Below, in pieces: positions 48,304-55,428 of a stretch of 64,000 nt of DNA. Each line of letters opens with the position of its first letter. The first letter of the stretch is position 1. The notes below the pieces were generated by a model, which saw only the letters and a list, made by a program, of their open reading frames with translations, was not told the DNA's origin and did no database searches. The translations under genes and the position numbers were made by a program. Source of the stretch: Clostridia bacterium. GTDB taxonomy: Bacteria; Bacillota; Clostridia; Oscillospirales; CAG-272. The stretch spans positions 1-64,000 of the forward strand of contig JAFUQQ010000034.1 in assembly GCA_017472285.1 (NCBI GenBank), written 5' to 3'.

Positions 48304-48380
48304 GCGGAGTGGAGCAGCTTGGTAGCTCGTCGGGCTCATAACCCGAAGGTCGCGTGGTTCAAATCCCGTCTCCGCAACCA
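48304..48380 (+). tRNA. Initiator tRNA-fMet (anticodon CAT); integration target
   Basis: 77 nt with encoded CCA. It has the initiator hallmarks: an unpaired C1-A72 (CGCGGAG against CTCCGCA) and three G-C pairs next to the CAT anticodon loop (GGG/CCC). Its 3' 46 nt (48335-48380) recur at 55381 as the distal attachment repeat, so the element integrated in this tRNA and regenerated it. Confidence 0.94.
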
Positions 48381-48382
48381 AA
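48335..48382 (+). repeat. Attachment site attL (48-bp direct repeat)
   Basis: It begins CTCATAACCCGAAGG within the tRNA-fMet anticodon loop and ends two bases past the encoded CCA. It is identical to 55381-55428; bases on either side differ. Confidence 0.93.
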
Positions 48383-48386
48383 CCAA

Positions 48387-48412
48387 AACGTCTCAGTTGA
48401 GGCGTTTTTCTT
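48387..48412 (+). terminator. Element-borne terminator of the tRNA pair
   Basis: AACGTCTC pairs with GAGGCGTT (one G-T pair) around AGTT, then TTTCTTTTTTT. It starts 7 nt after tRNA-fMet, so the element replaces the native terminator now displaced to 55437. Confidence 0.8.
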
Positions 48413-48905
48413 TTTTTCTCCTTAAAAATCAAGCAAGTAACAAGGTTTTTCCCGTTCAGTCATCATTCAGCCTATTTTCCGTCTATTGACAGGTAATGCC
48501 GTTTCGTTCCGTCTTTTTGGGCGTCATTTGGGCGTCATGACGGCGAAAATGCAAATTTTTTCTGAAAACGAAGTCGTCGCCGTCGTCATTTTCGGTCGTC
48601 ATGAAAATAAAATCTTCCCTATTCCCCGCTATTAAAAATAGCAAAACGGAAAATCCCCAAAAATTTTTTTGAATACGGGAATCAGAAAAATCAACTACGT
48701 CAAGGAAAATTCCTCAGAAACCCCAAATTCCCGCTTCTTTTTGGCAGAGTGAGCAAAAACAAAAATTTTCTTTTCTGTTCCTTTCTTGTCATTCTGTATC
48801 TATGACCGATGGTCATTTTCTGAAATTCCCTGTACTGATGCACCTTTTCTTGCTCGCCTTATACTTTTTTGACGGCAAGATGACGGCGTACCTTTTTTAG
48901 GGCAA

Positions 48906-48933
48906 AGAAAAAACACCGTTTTTCAGGCGGTGT
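48906..48933 (-). terminator. Terminator of the integrase gene
   Basis: ACACCG (48913-48918) pairs with CGGTGT (48928-48933), followed on the minus strand by a T-run (GTTTTTTCTTT). About 60 nt after the integrase stop. Confidence 0.75.
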
Positions 48934-48995
48934 GTGAATCATCTTATATTATGATTTTCAACAGCAAGTGTATTAAGCTTGCTTTATTTTTTTAC

Positions 48996-50135
48996 TTAAT
49001 TAAACAAGATACCGTCGATCTTCTCACCAGCATCTCTGTTCATACTGGGTAAGCTATGAGTGTAAATATTCATAGTAACGCTGATATCAGAATGACCAAG
49101 TCTTGTCTGAATGACTTTAGGACTCACACCCGCACTTAACATTGCTGTCGCACAGGTATGACGTAGATCATGGAGTCTGATTTCTTTTAAGCCGTGATTC
49201 TTACGGAAACGAATCCATTTTTGAGTCAAGGAATCAGGACTGAATCCTTTGCCGTTCTTCTGACGAATGACAAGGTTACTGTCAATAAAGTCCCCACCCA
49301 TCGCTTTTTTATCAGCCTTGTAGCGTTCATATTCTTCTGAAAGCAAGGTGTGCAGATGTTCACCGAAGTAGAGATCACGAAGTCCTGCTTGACTTTTAGG
49401 TGCTTTTGTAATCTTATCACCACCCGCTATCACACGGTTTTTTGTGATGTGAATCACGGATTTTTCAAAGTCTATATCAGACCATTCCAAAGCGGCAATT
49501 TCACCTCTGCGAAGTCCAAGAGAAATTTCAAGAACTACAAAAAGGTACATATCTGTATTTTTGCATACCTCTAAGAGATGTTCGATTTCCTTGTCATCGT
49601 AGACTTCCGCCTGATACTTTATTAGCTTCGGAAGTTCCACGCCTGTGCAAGGATTTTGGGGTATCATATTGAGTAATACCGCCTTATCTAACGCCGCTTT
49701 GAGATTTAAGTAGACATTTTTTACTGACTTTGGAGCAAGGTTTTCTTCTTTGGAAAGTGCATTCACCCACTGCTGAACCATCGATGTTTGCAAGGATTTC
49801 AAAGGGGTACTACCGAGATAGGGGTTCAGCTTTGTACGGATTCTTTCAACGTAATTTGCTCTTGTTGTTGCTTCTATGTTAGGCAAATAGAGTTCCAGCC
49901 ATTCAGCCATCCAGTCAGAGAGTTTTAATGCTGATGGTTTTGCTATGATACCGCTACCATCAATTTCAGCTTTCATACGGGAAAGTACAGCCTCTGCTTC
50001 TCTTTTTGTGCCGTTAACGGTCTTATAGAAACGCTGACGCTTGCCTGTGAGGGGGTCTTTTTCTGACTCTACGATGAGCTGATACGAGTTCTTGCCATCT
50101 TTCGTCTGTCTTTTGCGGATATGTCCTGTCGACAT
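48996..50135 (-). CDS. int: Tyrosine recombinase/integrase
   Basis: 379 residues. Seen: an N-terminal arm-binding part (GHIRKRQTKDGKNSYQL), a SAM-like core-binding domain (about 65-150), and the catalytic domain with Arg in SLGLRRGEIAALEW, HDLRHTCATAML, LGHSDISVTMNIYTH with the nucleophile Tyr. It should excise and insert the element at the tRNA-fMet repeats. AAAGGAGG supports ATG 50135. It points toward the tRNA end, as usual for tRNA-targeting islands. Confidence 0.96.
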   Translation of the reverse strand: MSTGHIRKRQTKDGKNSYQLIVESEKDPLTGKRQRFYKTVNGTKREAEAVLSRMKAEIDGSGIIAKPSALKLSDWMAEWLELYLPNIEATTRANYVERIRTKLNPYLGSTPLKSLQTSMVQQWVNALSKEENLAPKSVKNVYLNLKAALDKAVLLNMIPQNPCTGVELPKLIKYQAEVYDDKEIEHLLEVCKNTDMYLFVVLEISLGLRRGEIAALEWSDIDFEKSVIHITKNRVIAGGDKITKAPKSQAGLRDLYFGEHLHTLLSEEYERYKADKKAMGGDFIDSNLVIRQKNGKGFSPDSLTQKWIRFRKNHGLKEIRLHDLRHTCATAMLSAGVSPKVIQTRLGHSDISVTMNIYTHSLPSMNRDAGEKIDGILFN

Positions 50136-53600: not shown

Positions 53601-53626
53601 TTAATCAAAATCCTTTCTCGAAATAA

Positions 53627-54160
53627 TTAAAAACCATCTGTTACATCAACACTTGTAACATAGCCCAATGTATCTTCAAGGAAAAGATAAGACAAGTCTT
53701 CGTGTCCTACTATATTGCCATTTCTATCATAGACAAATACTTTGAACGAACCGTAATGAGTAGCACCAGAAGAACTATTTAACAATTTCCACTTTCCGCC
53801 TACTTTTTTTACATAGCCATCAACGCTTAGACAGCTTTCGTCATCGTTAAGTATGACCATTTCTTTTGCTATATTGCCAGAGTAGGCAAAATTTTCACCG
53901 ATCCATTTTCGAAAAGATTTACGAAGTAAGCCACGTGGTGTATACTGAGATGTGCCTTCGTGGGGAAGTTCCAATTCTTTTGAAACATTCATTTCAATGG
54001 TTTCAAGATGGTTTCCCGGACCTTTCACACGTGCTGTTCCTCTCCAGGTAGAGCCGATTTCAAATAATTCAAAAGTTTCACATTTTGCCGTATACCGCTT
54101 GTCTCCCTGTAATTCGCCAAAAACATCAGCAACCTCAAACAAGAAATCAAATAATCCCAC
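53627..54160 (-). CDS. Hypothetical protein of the element, 177 aa
   Basis: Not recognised. Starts with GTG (54160), giving MGLFDFLFEVADVFGELQG after GAGGTG with good spacing; beta-rich with FELFEIGSTWRGTARVKG and KVFVYDRNGNIVGHEDL. It lacks membrane segments. It sits 13 nt after the 161-aa gene and before the Cys-rich mini-protein, so it is part of one operon headed by the Mor-type regulator. Confidence 0.78.
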   Translation of the reverse strand: MGLFDFLFEVADVFGELQGDKRYTAKCETFELFEIGSTWRGTARVKGPGNHLETIEMNVSKELELPHEGTSQYTPRGLLRKSFRKWIGENFAYSGNIAKEMVILNDDESCLSVDGYVKKVGGKWKLLNSSSGATHYGSFKVFVYDRNGNIVGHEDLSYLFLEDTLGYVTSVDVTDGF

Positions 54161-54172
54161 AGCAACCACCTC

Positions 54173-54658
54173 TTACATTAAGTATTTTTCAATAACATCT
54201 TTCTTGCTTCTTACAGTTCCATCATATAATGTATTAGTCTCTATATAATCAGGATAGTTCAACATTCCAAAATAACAGAAAAAATTACCTATTTCACAAA
54301 CTTTATCCGTACTACCATTTTGAATATCTTCTCTAACCCGATCTATAAGTTTTTTATCGTTATAGATAGTATAAAAATCATACAACTGATTCGTTTTTGT
54401 TGTTTCTCTGCCATCATCATCAGTTTTTTTAATTTTTTGAATACTACCCTTAACCTTTAAAATCCAGCAACAATAGCTTTCTTCTGTATAAGTTACTATT
54501 GTATCAGAATAATTAAGTCGAGCAAAAAAACCGCTTGGTTTAGGTTGAGGATTCTTTTTCGTATGCTTTACTGAAAAAGTAACCTTTTTTTCTTCAAGAC
54601 CTACTACATCATCTGCATGAATAATATCACCATCGAATAGTAAAATCTCACTTGCCAT
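54173..54658 (-). CDS. Hypothetical protein of the element, 161 aa
   Basis: Not recognised. Seen: an N-terminal part like a small beta-barrel (ILLFDGDIIHADDVVGLEEK), a Cys pair in ESYCCWILKVKGSIQKIKK and a helical C-terminus. ATG 54658 follows AAAGGTG. Located between the Mor-type regulator and the 177-aa protein; as unknown cargo of an island it is a candidate for a fitness or defence role, but nothing in it shows that. Confidence 0.75.
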   Translation of the reverse strand: MASEILLFDGDIIHADDVVGLEEKKVTFSVKHTKKNPQPKPSGFFARLNYSDTIVTYTEESYCCWILKVKGSIQKIKKTDDDGRETTKTNQLYDFYTIYNDKKLIDRVREDIQNGSTDKVCEIGNFFCYFGMLNYPDYIETNTLYDGTVRSKKDVIEKYLM

Positions 54659-54697
54659 TTTATTCACACCTTTCTTCTTCGTTAATTATTTTTAGAT

Positions 54698-54958
54698 TTA
54701 CTCCTCCAAACTATCTTTAATCATCCTTCTGACCGTTTTTTCAGAGTAACCGTATTTTTTTGCAAGTTCACGAATATTTGTGCCATCATATTCTTTAATG
54801 ACATTCGTTTGTAACCGTCTTGCATTAAACAAATGGATAGGGAATGTAATCTGTTGACCCTTATACATTTGATAGATAGCGATTGCTGTATCCATTCCTA
54901 ATGCTGCACCTATCTCACGGTAGACATCATTAAAAAGTTCAGATTCATTGGTATCCAT
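54698..54958 (-). CDS. Mor-type transcription activator family protein
   Basis: 86 residues. Seen: LFNDVYREIGAALGMDTAIAIYQMYKGQQ (read as the Mor dimerisation part) and the helix-turn-helix IRELAKKYGYSEKTVRRMI. Known: Mor/C proteins activate phage Mu middle and late genes; short homologues are frequent on islands. ATG 54958 follows AAAGGATG. It heads the minus-strand cargo operon and probably controls it or a helper-phage response. Confidence 0.87.
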   Translation of the reverse strand: MDTNESELFNDVYREIGAALGMDTAIAIYQMYKGQQITFPIHLFNARRLQTNVIKEYDGTNIRELAKKYGYSEKTVRRMIKDSLEE

Positions 54959-55380
54959 TTGAAGCACATCCTTTCTATTATTGATTTTAACAAATTCTGA
55001 CAAACCTCGCAAGTCCCGCAGTCCTTGCGTTTGTCCCAACAAAAACAAAAATTCCTCATTCTTCTTTACAGAGAGAGAATGAGGAATCTGCTGTTTTTTT
55101 ATGTTATTTTTATTTTTTTGCAACGATTGCAGAACAAGCGGGATTTTGGGGTTTTCAGGATTTTAAGATGTTTTTTGCTTGGATTTTCTCAGGATTTCAG
55201 GCAATGGTTTTACCCCAAAACTGTGGGAAATTTTATGGCAAATCCCGTTTGAGTGCAGAAAAAAGACAGCTTTATTTCGTGTTGTTTTTAGAGAGAAGTC
55301 GTCATCTGGTCGGCACAGACGTCAAAGAAATTCTCGAAACTCCTTGCCAGCGCTGGATTTTCTGACATTCTTTTCCATTT
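54959..55380. other. Non-coding right end of the element
   Basis: 422 nt with no convincing gene. It contains a hairpin TTCCTCATTCT/AGAATGAGGAA (about 55052-55083), likely near the cargo promoter, and otherwise G/T-rich sequence up to attR. Confidence 0.5.
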
Positions 55381-55428
55381 CTCATAACCCGAAGGTCGCG
55401 TGGTTCAAATCCCGTCTCCGCAACCAAA
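55381..55428 (+). repeat. Attachment site attR (48-bp direct repeat)
   Basis: An exact copy of the tRNA-fMet 3' half (48335-48382), lacking the 5' half, so it is not a tRNA gene. Confidence 0.93.

Follow-up and report, generated by a model that had tools for sequence, protein, structure and literature searches.

To which kind of mobile element does a 7-kb insertion belong that occupies an initiator tRNA gene and carries an integrase and a replication helicase? The question is raised by a stretch of 64,000 nt (positions 1–64,000 of contig JAFUQQ010000034.1; Clostridia bacterium, Oscillospirales, CAG-272), hereafter the window. An initial annotation had described the insertion as a minimal integrative element with a Mor-led cargo operon, which our analysis supports, and had suggested a family of phage satellites, for which we find a better alternative. 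Judged from sequence comparisons, the element is probably a self-excising and self-replicating mini-island, and represents a tyrosine-integrase branch of a family of islands in gut Oscillospirales that resemble the staphylococcal cassette chromosome (SCC). Its genes and attachment (att) sites are as follows:

48302–48379, +: tRNA-fMet (initiator), target gene, reconstituted by the element (ARAGORN, tRNA-Met(CAT); stem bases)
48335–48382, +: attL core, an exact 48-nt repeat that runs from the anticodon loop to slightly beyond the CCA end
48996–50138, −: tyrosine integrase (Int), 380 aa (PF00589, E = 4.8e-27; phrog_1, E = 2.7e-77)
50201–50404, −: excisionase-like (Xis-like) HTH_17 protein, 67 aa (PF12728, 1.2e-6; TIGR01764, 2.8e-4)
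50388–52121, −: Cch-type DUF927 helicase, ~577 aa, with the Cch C-terminal helix-turn-helix (HTH; PF06048, 2.1e-22; PF18662, 8.1e-12)
52122–52435, no strand: divergent intergenic region, candidate origin and promoters (palindrome 52311–52327; 13-mer shared with locus L076, see below)
52436–52777, +: p113, small protein, function unassigned
52777–53361, +: DUF1643 protein, 194 aa (PF07799, 2.3e-26), its start overlapping the p113 stop
53445–53600, −: cargo, 51-aa putative zinc-ribbon protein (phrog_15514, 6.2e-6; weak DUF1451)
53627–54169, −: cargo, ~180-aa protein of no known family
54173–54658, −: cargo, ~161-aa protein of no known family
54698–54958, −: Mor-like regulator, encoded first in the cargo operon (PF08765, 1.8e-10)
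55381–55428, +: attR core (tRNA 3′ half)

The genes form three blocks: cch-xis-int point leftward toward the tRNA, p113-DUF1643 rightward, and the Mor-led cargo leftward from the far end. The xis-like gene overlaps the end of cch, whose start most likely lies at 52121 (an AGGAGG is found upstream, and the position agrees with the L076 start; the open reading frame (ORF) extends to 52157). Hidden Markov model (HMM) searches confirmed the integrase, excisionase-like protein, DUF927 ATPase, and Mor protein of the initial annotation. As it had also stated for virion, packaging, and mobilization genes, none of the element proteins matched a family of virion, packaging, lysis, or relaxase genes in these scans.

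A core shared with SCC and serine-recombinase islands

Staphylococci are the main group from which SCC elements are known; in Staphylococcus, these islands carry methicillin resistance, and their replication and spread are still debated. Two SCC patterns and their helicases have been described, and replication of SCC after excision has been proposed; the Cch helicase is MCM-like, and a putative origin is unwound by Cch2, the helicase of the other SCC pattern (PMC7581432). In a maximum-likelihood tree comparing 10 sequences of the SCC-type Cch clade with eight phage-type DUF927 proteins, the window Cch grouped with staphylococcal SCC Cch and the Cch proteins of DUF1643/p113/Mor loci (support 100/100); the order inside this clade is unsure because of long branches. 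The best match of the window Cch in the PDB was the SCC helicase 5dgk (phmmer, E = 1.5e-34), and SaPIbov1 Rep was not reached by this search at E ≤ 0.01. A profile also holding SCC Cch did reach SaPIbov1 Rep (8tch, E = 2.8e-42). The NCBIfam model SCCmet_Cch1 matched the window protein at 1e-49.

The gene neighborhood points in the same direction. The SCC gene order in L018 and L039 is LP1413-Cch-CcrA-CcrB...SAUGI-DUF960-DUF1643, and in five further loci (L021, L078, L079, L083, and L084) a p113-type gene, DUF1643, and Cch lie beside a Ccr-like serine recombinase. This recombinase adjoins tmRNA in L021, L078, and L079 and tRNA-Leu in L083, and judging from a 12-nt repeat of the end of the RNA gene, the elements would measure ~5.7 (L021), 9.7 (L079), and 7.7 kb (L083). 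L078, L079, L083, and L084 belong to Oscillospirales; L021 is a human-gut contig deposited as ‘Bacteriophage sp.’. Mor is present too in L079 and L083, and in L079, L081, L083, and L085 it stands at the far end, heading cargo genes of which some encode SHOCT or WYL domains. The window DUF1643 is 38–41% identical to its counterparts in SCC and in the serine-recombinase loci from the gut, and the window Mor is 36–41% identical to the Mor genes of related loci. No serine recombinase ORF was found in the element, its recombinase being the tyrosine integrase. It is the Cch-DUF1643-p113 core shared with the serine-recombinase islands that leads us to regard the element as a tyrosine-integrase branch of one family.

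Homologs of p113 were found in L076, L087, L078, L079, L083, L084, L021, L038, and L089, and in most related islands the protein is paired with DUF1643. In L084, the p113-type gene precedes DUF960-DUF1643, i.e., it takes the place of SAUGI; hhalign showed no SAUGI similarity. DUF960 itself had no match in the element and is present in L084, L085, and L089. An identity of the window p113 with DUF960 or SAUGI found no support (hhalign probabilities 0.1–0.2%), and its low-confidence AlphaFold model (pLDDT 67) gave Roadblock/Rag-like best matches with Z ≤ 4.6, which we judged meaningless. For DUF1643, the parallel alpha/beta layout and an HPLSP motif had raised the idea of a uracil-DNA-glycosylase fold; this is unproven, given a model pLDDT of 73, a best Z of 6.5, and no glycosylase among the matches listed. 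PADLOC detected no defense system for any cargo protein, and PADLOC together with Pfam found nothing that would make the 180-aa and 161-aa proteins a known defense.

The same island in other genomes

The initial annotation had proposed looking for the same int-xis-DUF927 order in tRNA-fMet of other genomes, and one such copy was found. It resides in G543, a metagenome-assembled genome (MAG) of Oscillospiraceae from goat caecum, which belongs to another family of the same order (L076; judged by the identical genes, the same contig as JAFQME010000009.1, L086). L076 has tRNA-Leu and tRNA-fMet, the fMet att repeats are spaced 7,108 bp apart, and gene order and orientation match the window (int-xis-cch / p113-DUF1643 / cargo-Mor). 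Identity to the window proteins is 57% for Int, 38% for Cch, 35% for p113, 64% for DUF1643, and 62% for Mor; the cargo is swapped for one 133-aa protein and a small HTH-sized ORF. By its sequence, this is thus a recurring element with a copy in another family of the order.

In other relatives, the replicase is exchanged as well. L087, from a rabbit-gut Oscillospiraceae MAG, retains Int, p113, DUF1643 (65%), and a weak Xis match, and carries in the place of Cch a weakly DUF5906-like protein of 497 aa and a 203-aa protein; L099 is like L087 in Int, Xis, and replicase, and the Xis-like protein is conserved in both L076 and L099. Taken together, the compared sequences indicate that this is a family with exchangeable recombinases, replicases, and Mor-led cargo.

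Detection depended on the query. BLAST with Cch against 59 relatives and 398 genomes of the phylum returned the window only, and pattern scans for Cch in genome and viral contigs yielded zero relatives; a profile was needed. With a profile of Cch-like proteins, 23 of 394 genomes of the order were identified as carriers, mostly with other kinds of element, and a profile of the window and L076 integrases found six genomes with the integrase at E ≤ 1e-80 among the 394. All seven close integrase relatives (the six plus L087) adjoin tRNA-fMet or its 3′ half, the orientation of int relative to the half-site varying among them. Furthermore, 13 viral contigs were recruited by the integrase, with integrases merely 26–40% identical to that of the window; the core genes are absent from the three annotated ones, L005, L016, and L017.

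Insertion site, arm sites, and candidate origin

The 48-bp repeats that were reported to bound the ~7.1-kb element are correct to the base (48335–48382 and 55381–55428); the repeat is exact and maximal, i.e., unextendable on either side (self-BLAST E = 3e-19), and the element length between the repeats is 7,046 bp, with a G+C content of 37.5% versus 44% in the window. The target shows the marks of an initiator, read from the sequence: C1 and A72 are mismatched, and the anticodon stem contains three G-C pairs (GGG:CCC). It is the single complete tRNA-fMet found in the assembly; besides attR, there is one half of 87% identity on a 3-kb contig. The 3′ half of the gene has been replaced by the copy of the element, which also brings its own terminator, as originally proposed, and L076 likewise has a hairpin and then a T-run after tRNA-fMet. 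The sites concerned, together with the putative integrase arm sites and a repeated 24-mer, are listed below:

48385–48408, +: element-borne intrinsic terminator for the tRNA transcript
55432–55461, +: displaced host terminator of tRNA-fMet
48520–48536, +: putative arm-type integrase site, left arm, first copy
48871–48887, −: putative arm-type integrase site, left arm, second copy, inverted
55298–55314, +: putative arm-type integrase site, right arm
48482–48505, +: 24-nt sequence inside the left end (exact match to 55577–55600)
55577–55600, +: outside copy of the 24-mer, right of attR

Both element ends carry a motif of two half-sites, [GT]NCGNCA-N3/4-[GT]NCGNC. Its copies in L076, at 7307(+), 7637(−), and 14179(+), have the same +,−,+ layout and like distances as in the window, with the right-arm copy beginning 83 bp (window) or 82 bp (L076) before attR. 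In L101, whose right end is unassembled, copies lie at 9328(+) and 9713(−). Only 0.01 sites are expected per shuffled element, and the motif is degenerate and was defined only after inspection of the element ends, so the shared layout outweighs the shuffle figure. We take these copies as a lambda-like set of arm-type integrase sites. A search for shared exact k-mers at the element ends found none of ≥10 nt. Within the candidate origin region, the longest word shared with L076 is a 13-mer, a length reached in 1.5% of shuffles.

The 24-mer TCTATTGACAGGTAATGCCGTTTC has two copies in the genome, one lying 100 bp inward of attL and the other 149 bp beyond attR; the outer one may have been left behind by the left end of a previous occupant. 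Between attR and the outer copy, just right of the host terminator, lies a palindrome of ~60 nt with 20-nt arms (TTCAATATTCATTATTCATT; 55481–55540) that resembles a miniature inverted-repeat transposable element. Further to the right, the product of a short ORF (56139–56603) has a leader of the GG type, as in lantibiotics, MRELSDDELNDVSGGG, and is rich in cysteine after it.

For the family of the window as a whole, the initiator tRNA gene is a hotspot of insertion. Within this family, 118 genomes were scanned, 91 of which had an fMet match, and eight of these 91, the window genome included, have a detached fMet 3′ half that starts at tRNA position 33 or 34. Some of these occupants carry other integrase types. 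As the hotspot is shared by unrelated elements, the choice of target is not special to the window element. Within the same genus, G003 gives a picture of the empty site (single fMet, own terminator, no 3′-half copy), and G001 has an unrelated 7.8-kb element in tRNA-fMet (L030 1919–9834) with int at the opposite end and TTTGCTACTTAT repeats near both ends. In L107 (G023:C31), two tRNA-fMet halves lie 15 kb apart with other large ORFs between them, as in tandem islands. Detached 5′ halves (bases 1–33) occur at G780:C13:196661–196693 and G579:C11:46964–46996, each separated from the intact gene by a few hundred bases. Finally, the 3-kb contig C77 of the window genome (L115) combines a diverged tRNA-fMet 3′ half with a relaxase; it is possibly a piece of another fMet-inserted mobilizable element, or else a contaminant.

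Alternative explanations

A satellite in the manner of the phage-inducible chromosomal islands (PICIs) would be induced by a helper prophage, replicated by its DUF927 Rep, and packaged in helper capsids, with Mor sensing or answering the late program of the helper. The element shares with PICIs such as the SaPIs an Int, a Xis, a Rep (that of SaPIbov1 is related to DUF927; PMC7581432), an att site of its own, and the lack of structural genes, a combination that fits a published PICI screen together with the small size (PMC6092414). However, a length of 7 kb is half of the usual 12–15 kb, and the Cch groups with SCC and not with phage-type DUF927, just as phmmer leads from it to SCC Cch and not to SaPIbov1 Rep. 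Mor belongs to a family of phage late activators, and prophage genes for a portal, a terminase large subunit, and an integrase reside on the same contig; the same Mor-led cargo was, however, also found in the islands with Ccr-like serine recombinases. Neither terS nor a primase, a packaging, capsid-remodeling, or interference gene, or a recognizable Stl-like divergent repressor or AlpA was detected in the element, whose recognized regulators are Mor and the Xis-like HTH protein only, with small unassigned ORFs remaining. Given the SCC-clade Cch, a p113-DUF1643 pair that resembles the SCC accessory module, and no recognized packaging or capsid-interference gene, the element is probably not a phage satellite as the initial annotation had suggested, and we rate this explanation as quite improbable.

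Transfer as an integrative mobilizable element (IME), in which the circle would be nicked at an origin of transfer (oriT) of its own by the relaxase of a conjugative helper, also appears doubtful. The genome does encode relaxases elsewhere (C29, C59, and C77), and the Cch C-terminus contains a weak TcpK-like winged helix, yet the element contains neither a relaxase nor a coupling gene, none was recognized in the L076 copy, and no oriT was recognized, without a search by a dedicated oriT tool. With tRNA-borne tyrosine-integrase islands and IMEs in general, the element has in common the att core in the tRNA 3′ half, the reconstituted tRNA, its own terminator, and arm sites; it differs by the lack of mobilization genes and by a replication and accessory core of the SCC type. 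That the element is a prophage or larger island that has decayed by deletion and become immobile is hardly credible. The copy of the 24-mer beyond attR hints at previous events at this site, and much of the cargo has no assigned family, but all core ORFs are intact, the att repeat is exact, the arm sites are conserved, and the equally small copy with the same gene order in another family (7,108 bp, L076) largely refutes this explanation. Relatives with phage structural genes that have been deleted here were not seen among those examined.

Several observations weigh against an SCC-like island as well. The SCCmet_Cch1 score of 169.6 lies far below the 700-bit equivalog cut-off, and the window Cch is ~25% identical to SCC Cch. 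A homolog of LP1413, the SCC single-stranded DNA-binding protein (SSB), is absent among the element ORFs, no primase matched, and neither p113 nor DUF1643 yielded a usable match when its modeled structure was compared. No iterons were recognized in the element, so that the placement of the origin is a guess.

Proposed mechanism and relation to described elements

For a self-excising SCC-like mini-island, we propose the following cycle. Int and Xis would recombine the 48-nt cores to give a circle of 7,046 bp. Cch may bind the candidate origin, perhaps within 52122–52435, via its C-terminal winged helix, unwind it, and recruit host replication, whereby the circle could persist or amplify. p113 and DUF1643 might have a protective or processing role while the circle replicates, by analogy with a proposal for SAUGI in the SCC module, and Mor would turn on the cargo operon. 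The circle could then travel on the transfer route of another element and re-enter tRNA-fMet of the next cell, leaving initiation unharmed. Possible vehicles for such hitch-hiking are a prophage in the genome itself (portal and terminase genes) and the relaxases on other contigs. The genes for the portal and the terminase large subunit lie at about 131–134 kb of contig C75 (L114 6788–9742), close to a large serine integrase, and mark a possible helper.

Among described elements, SCC pattern 1 resembles the island in its Cch-type DUF927 helicase beside recombinase genes, in DUF1643 (38% identical) with a small protein upstream, and in a short core with variable cargo. It differs in that SCC has CcrAB in place of a tyrosine integrase with Xis and inserts at the end of rlmH instead of tRNA-fMet; the 7-kb element, moreover, lacks the LP1413 SSB and DUF960, has no recognizable SAUGI, and contains Mor. 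SCC-like islands with a large serine recombinase have been described in ssrA (tmRNA) of Clostridia (PMC10061031). They share with our element the host phylum (Bacillota), a self-loading helicase, SCC-type DUF proteins, and insertion into an RNA gene, whereas they use a serine recombinase, and many have PolA-SSB primases and COG3378 helicases. One table entry of that study, Metalysinibacillus jejuensis, lists a Y recombinase with a COG3378 helicase. The combination of a tyrosine integrase with the SCC core was found in no described element. No Cch element with a tyrosine integrase and no Mor in such islands was found in the literature searched, and an earlier mention is possible; by their titles, none of the searched publications that name DUF1643 is about such islands.

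A broader proposal, which is conceivable but rather unlikely, is an undescribed and widespread minimal family of autonomously replicating SCC-like islands in gut Oscillospirales. Here, a tyrosine or serine recombinase, a Cch or DUF5906-like replicase, and the cargo would be swapped around a fixed p113-DUF1643 pair, often with a Mor acting as a switch, which would couple both excision and the expression of cargo to the arrival of a phage or another helper.

The Cch-DUF1643 core occurs on islands of 6–10 kb with either type of recombinase in RNA genes of gut Clostridia, which suggests a portable replication and accessory module that is tied neither to ccr nor to rlmH. These small islands would offer the simplest natural setting in which to probe the roles of DUF1643 and its small partner and to ask whether replication is driven by Cch.

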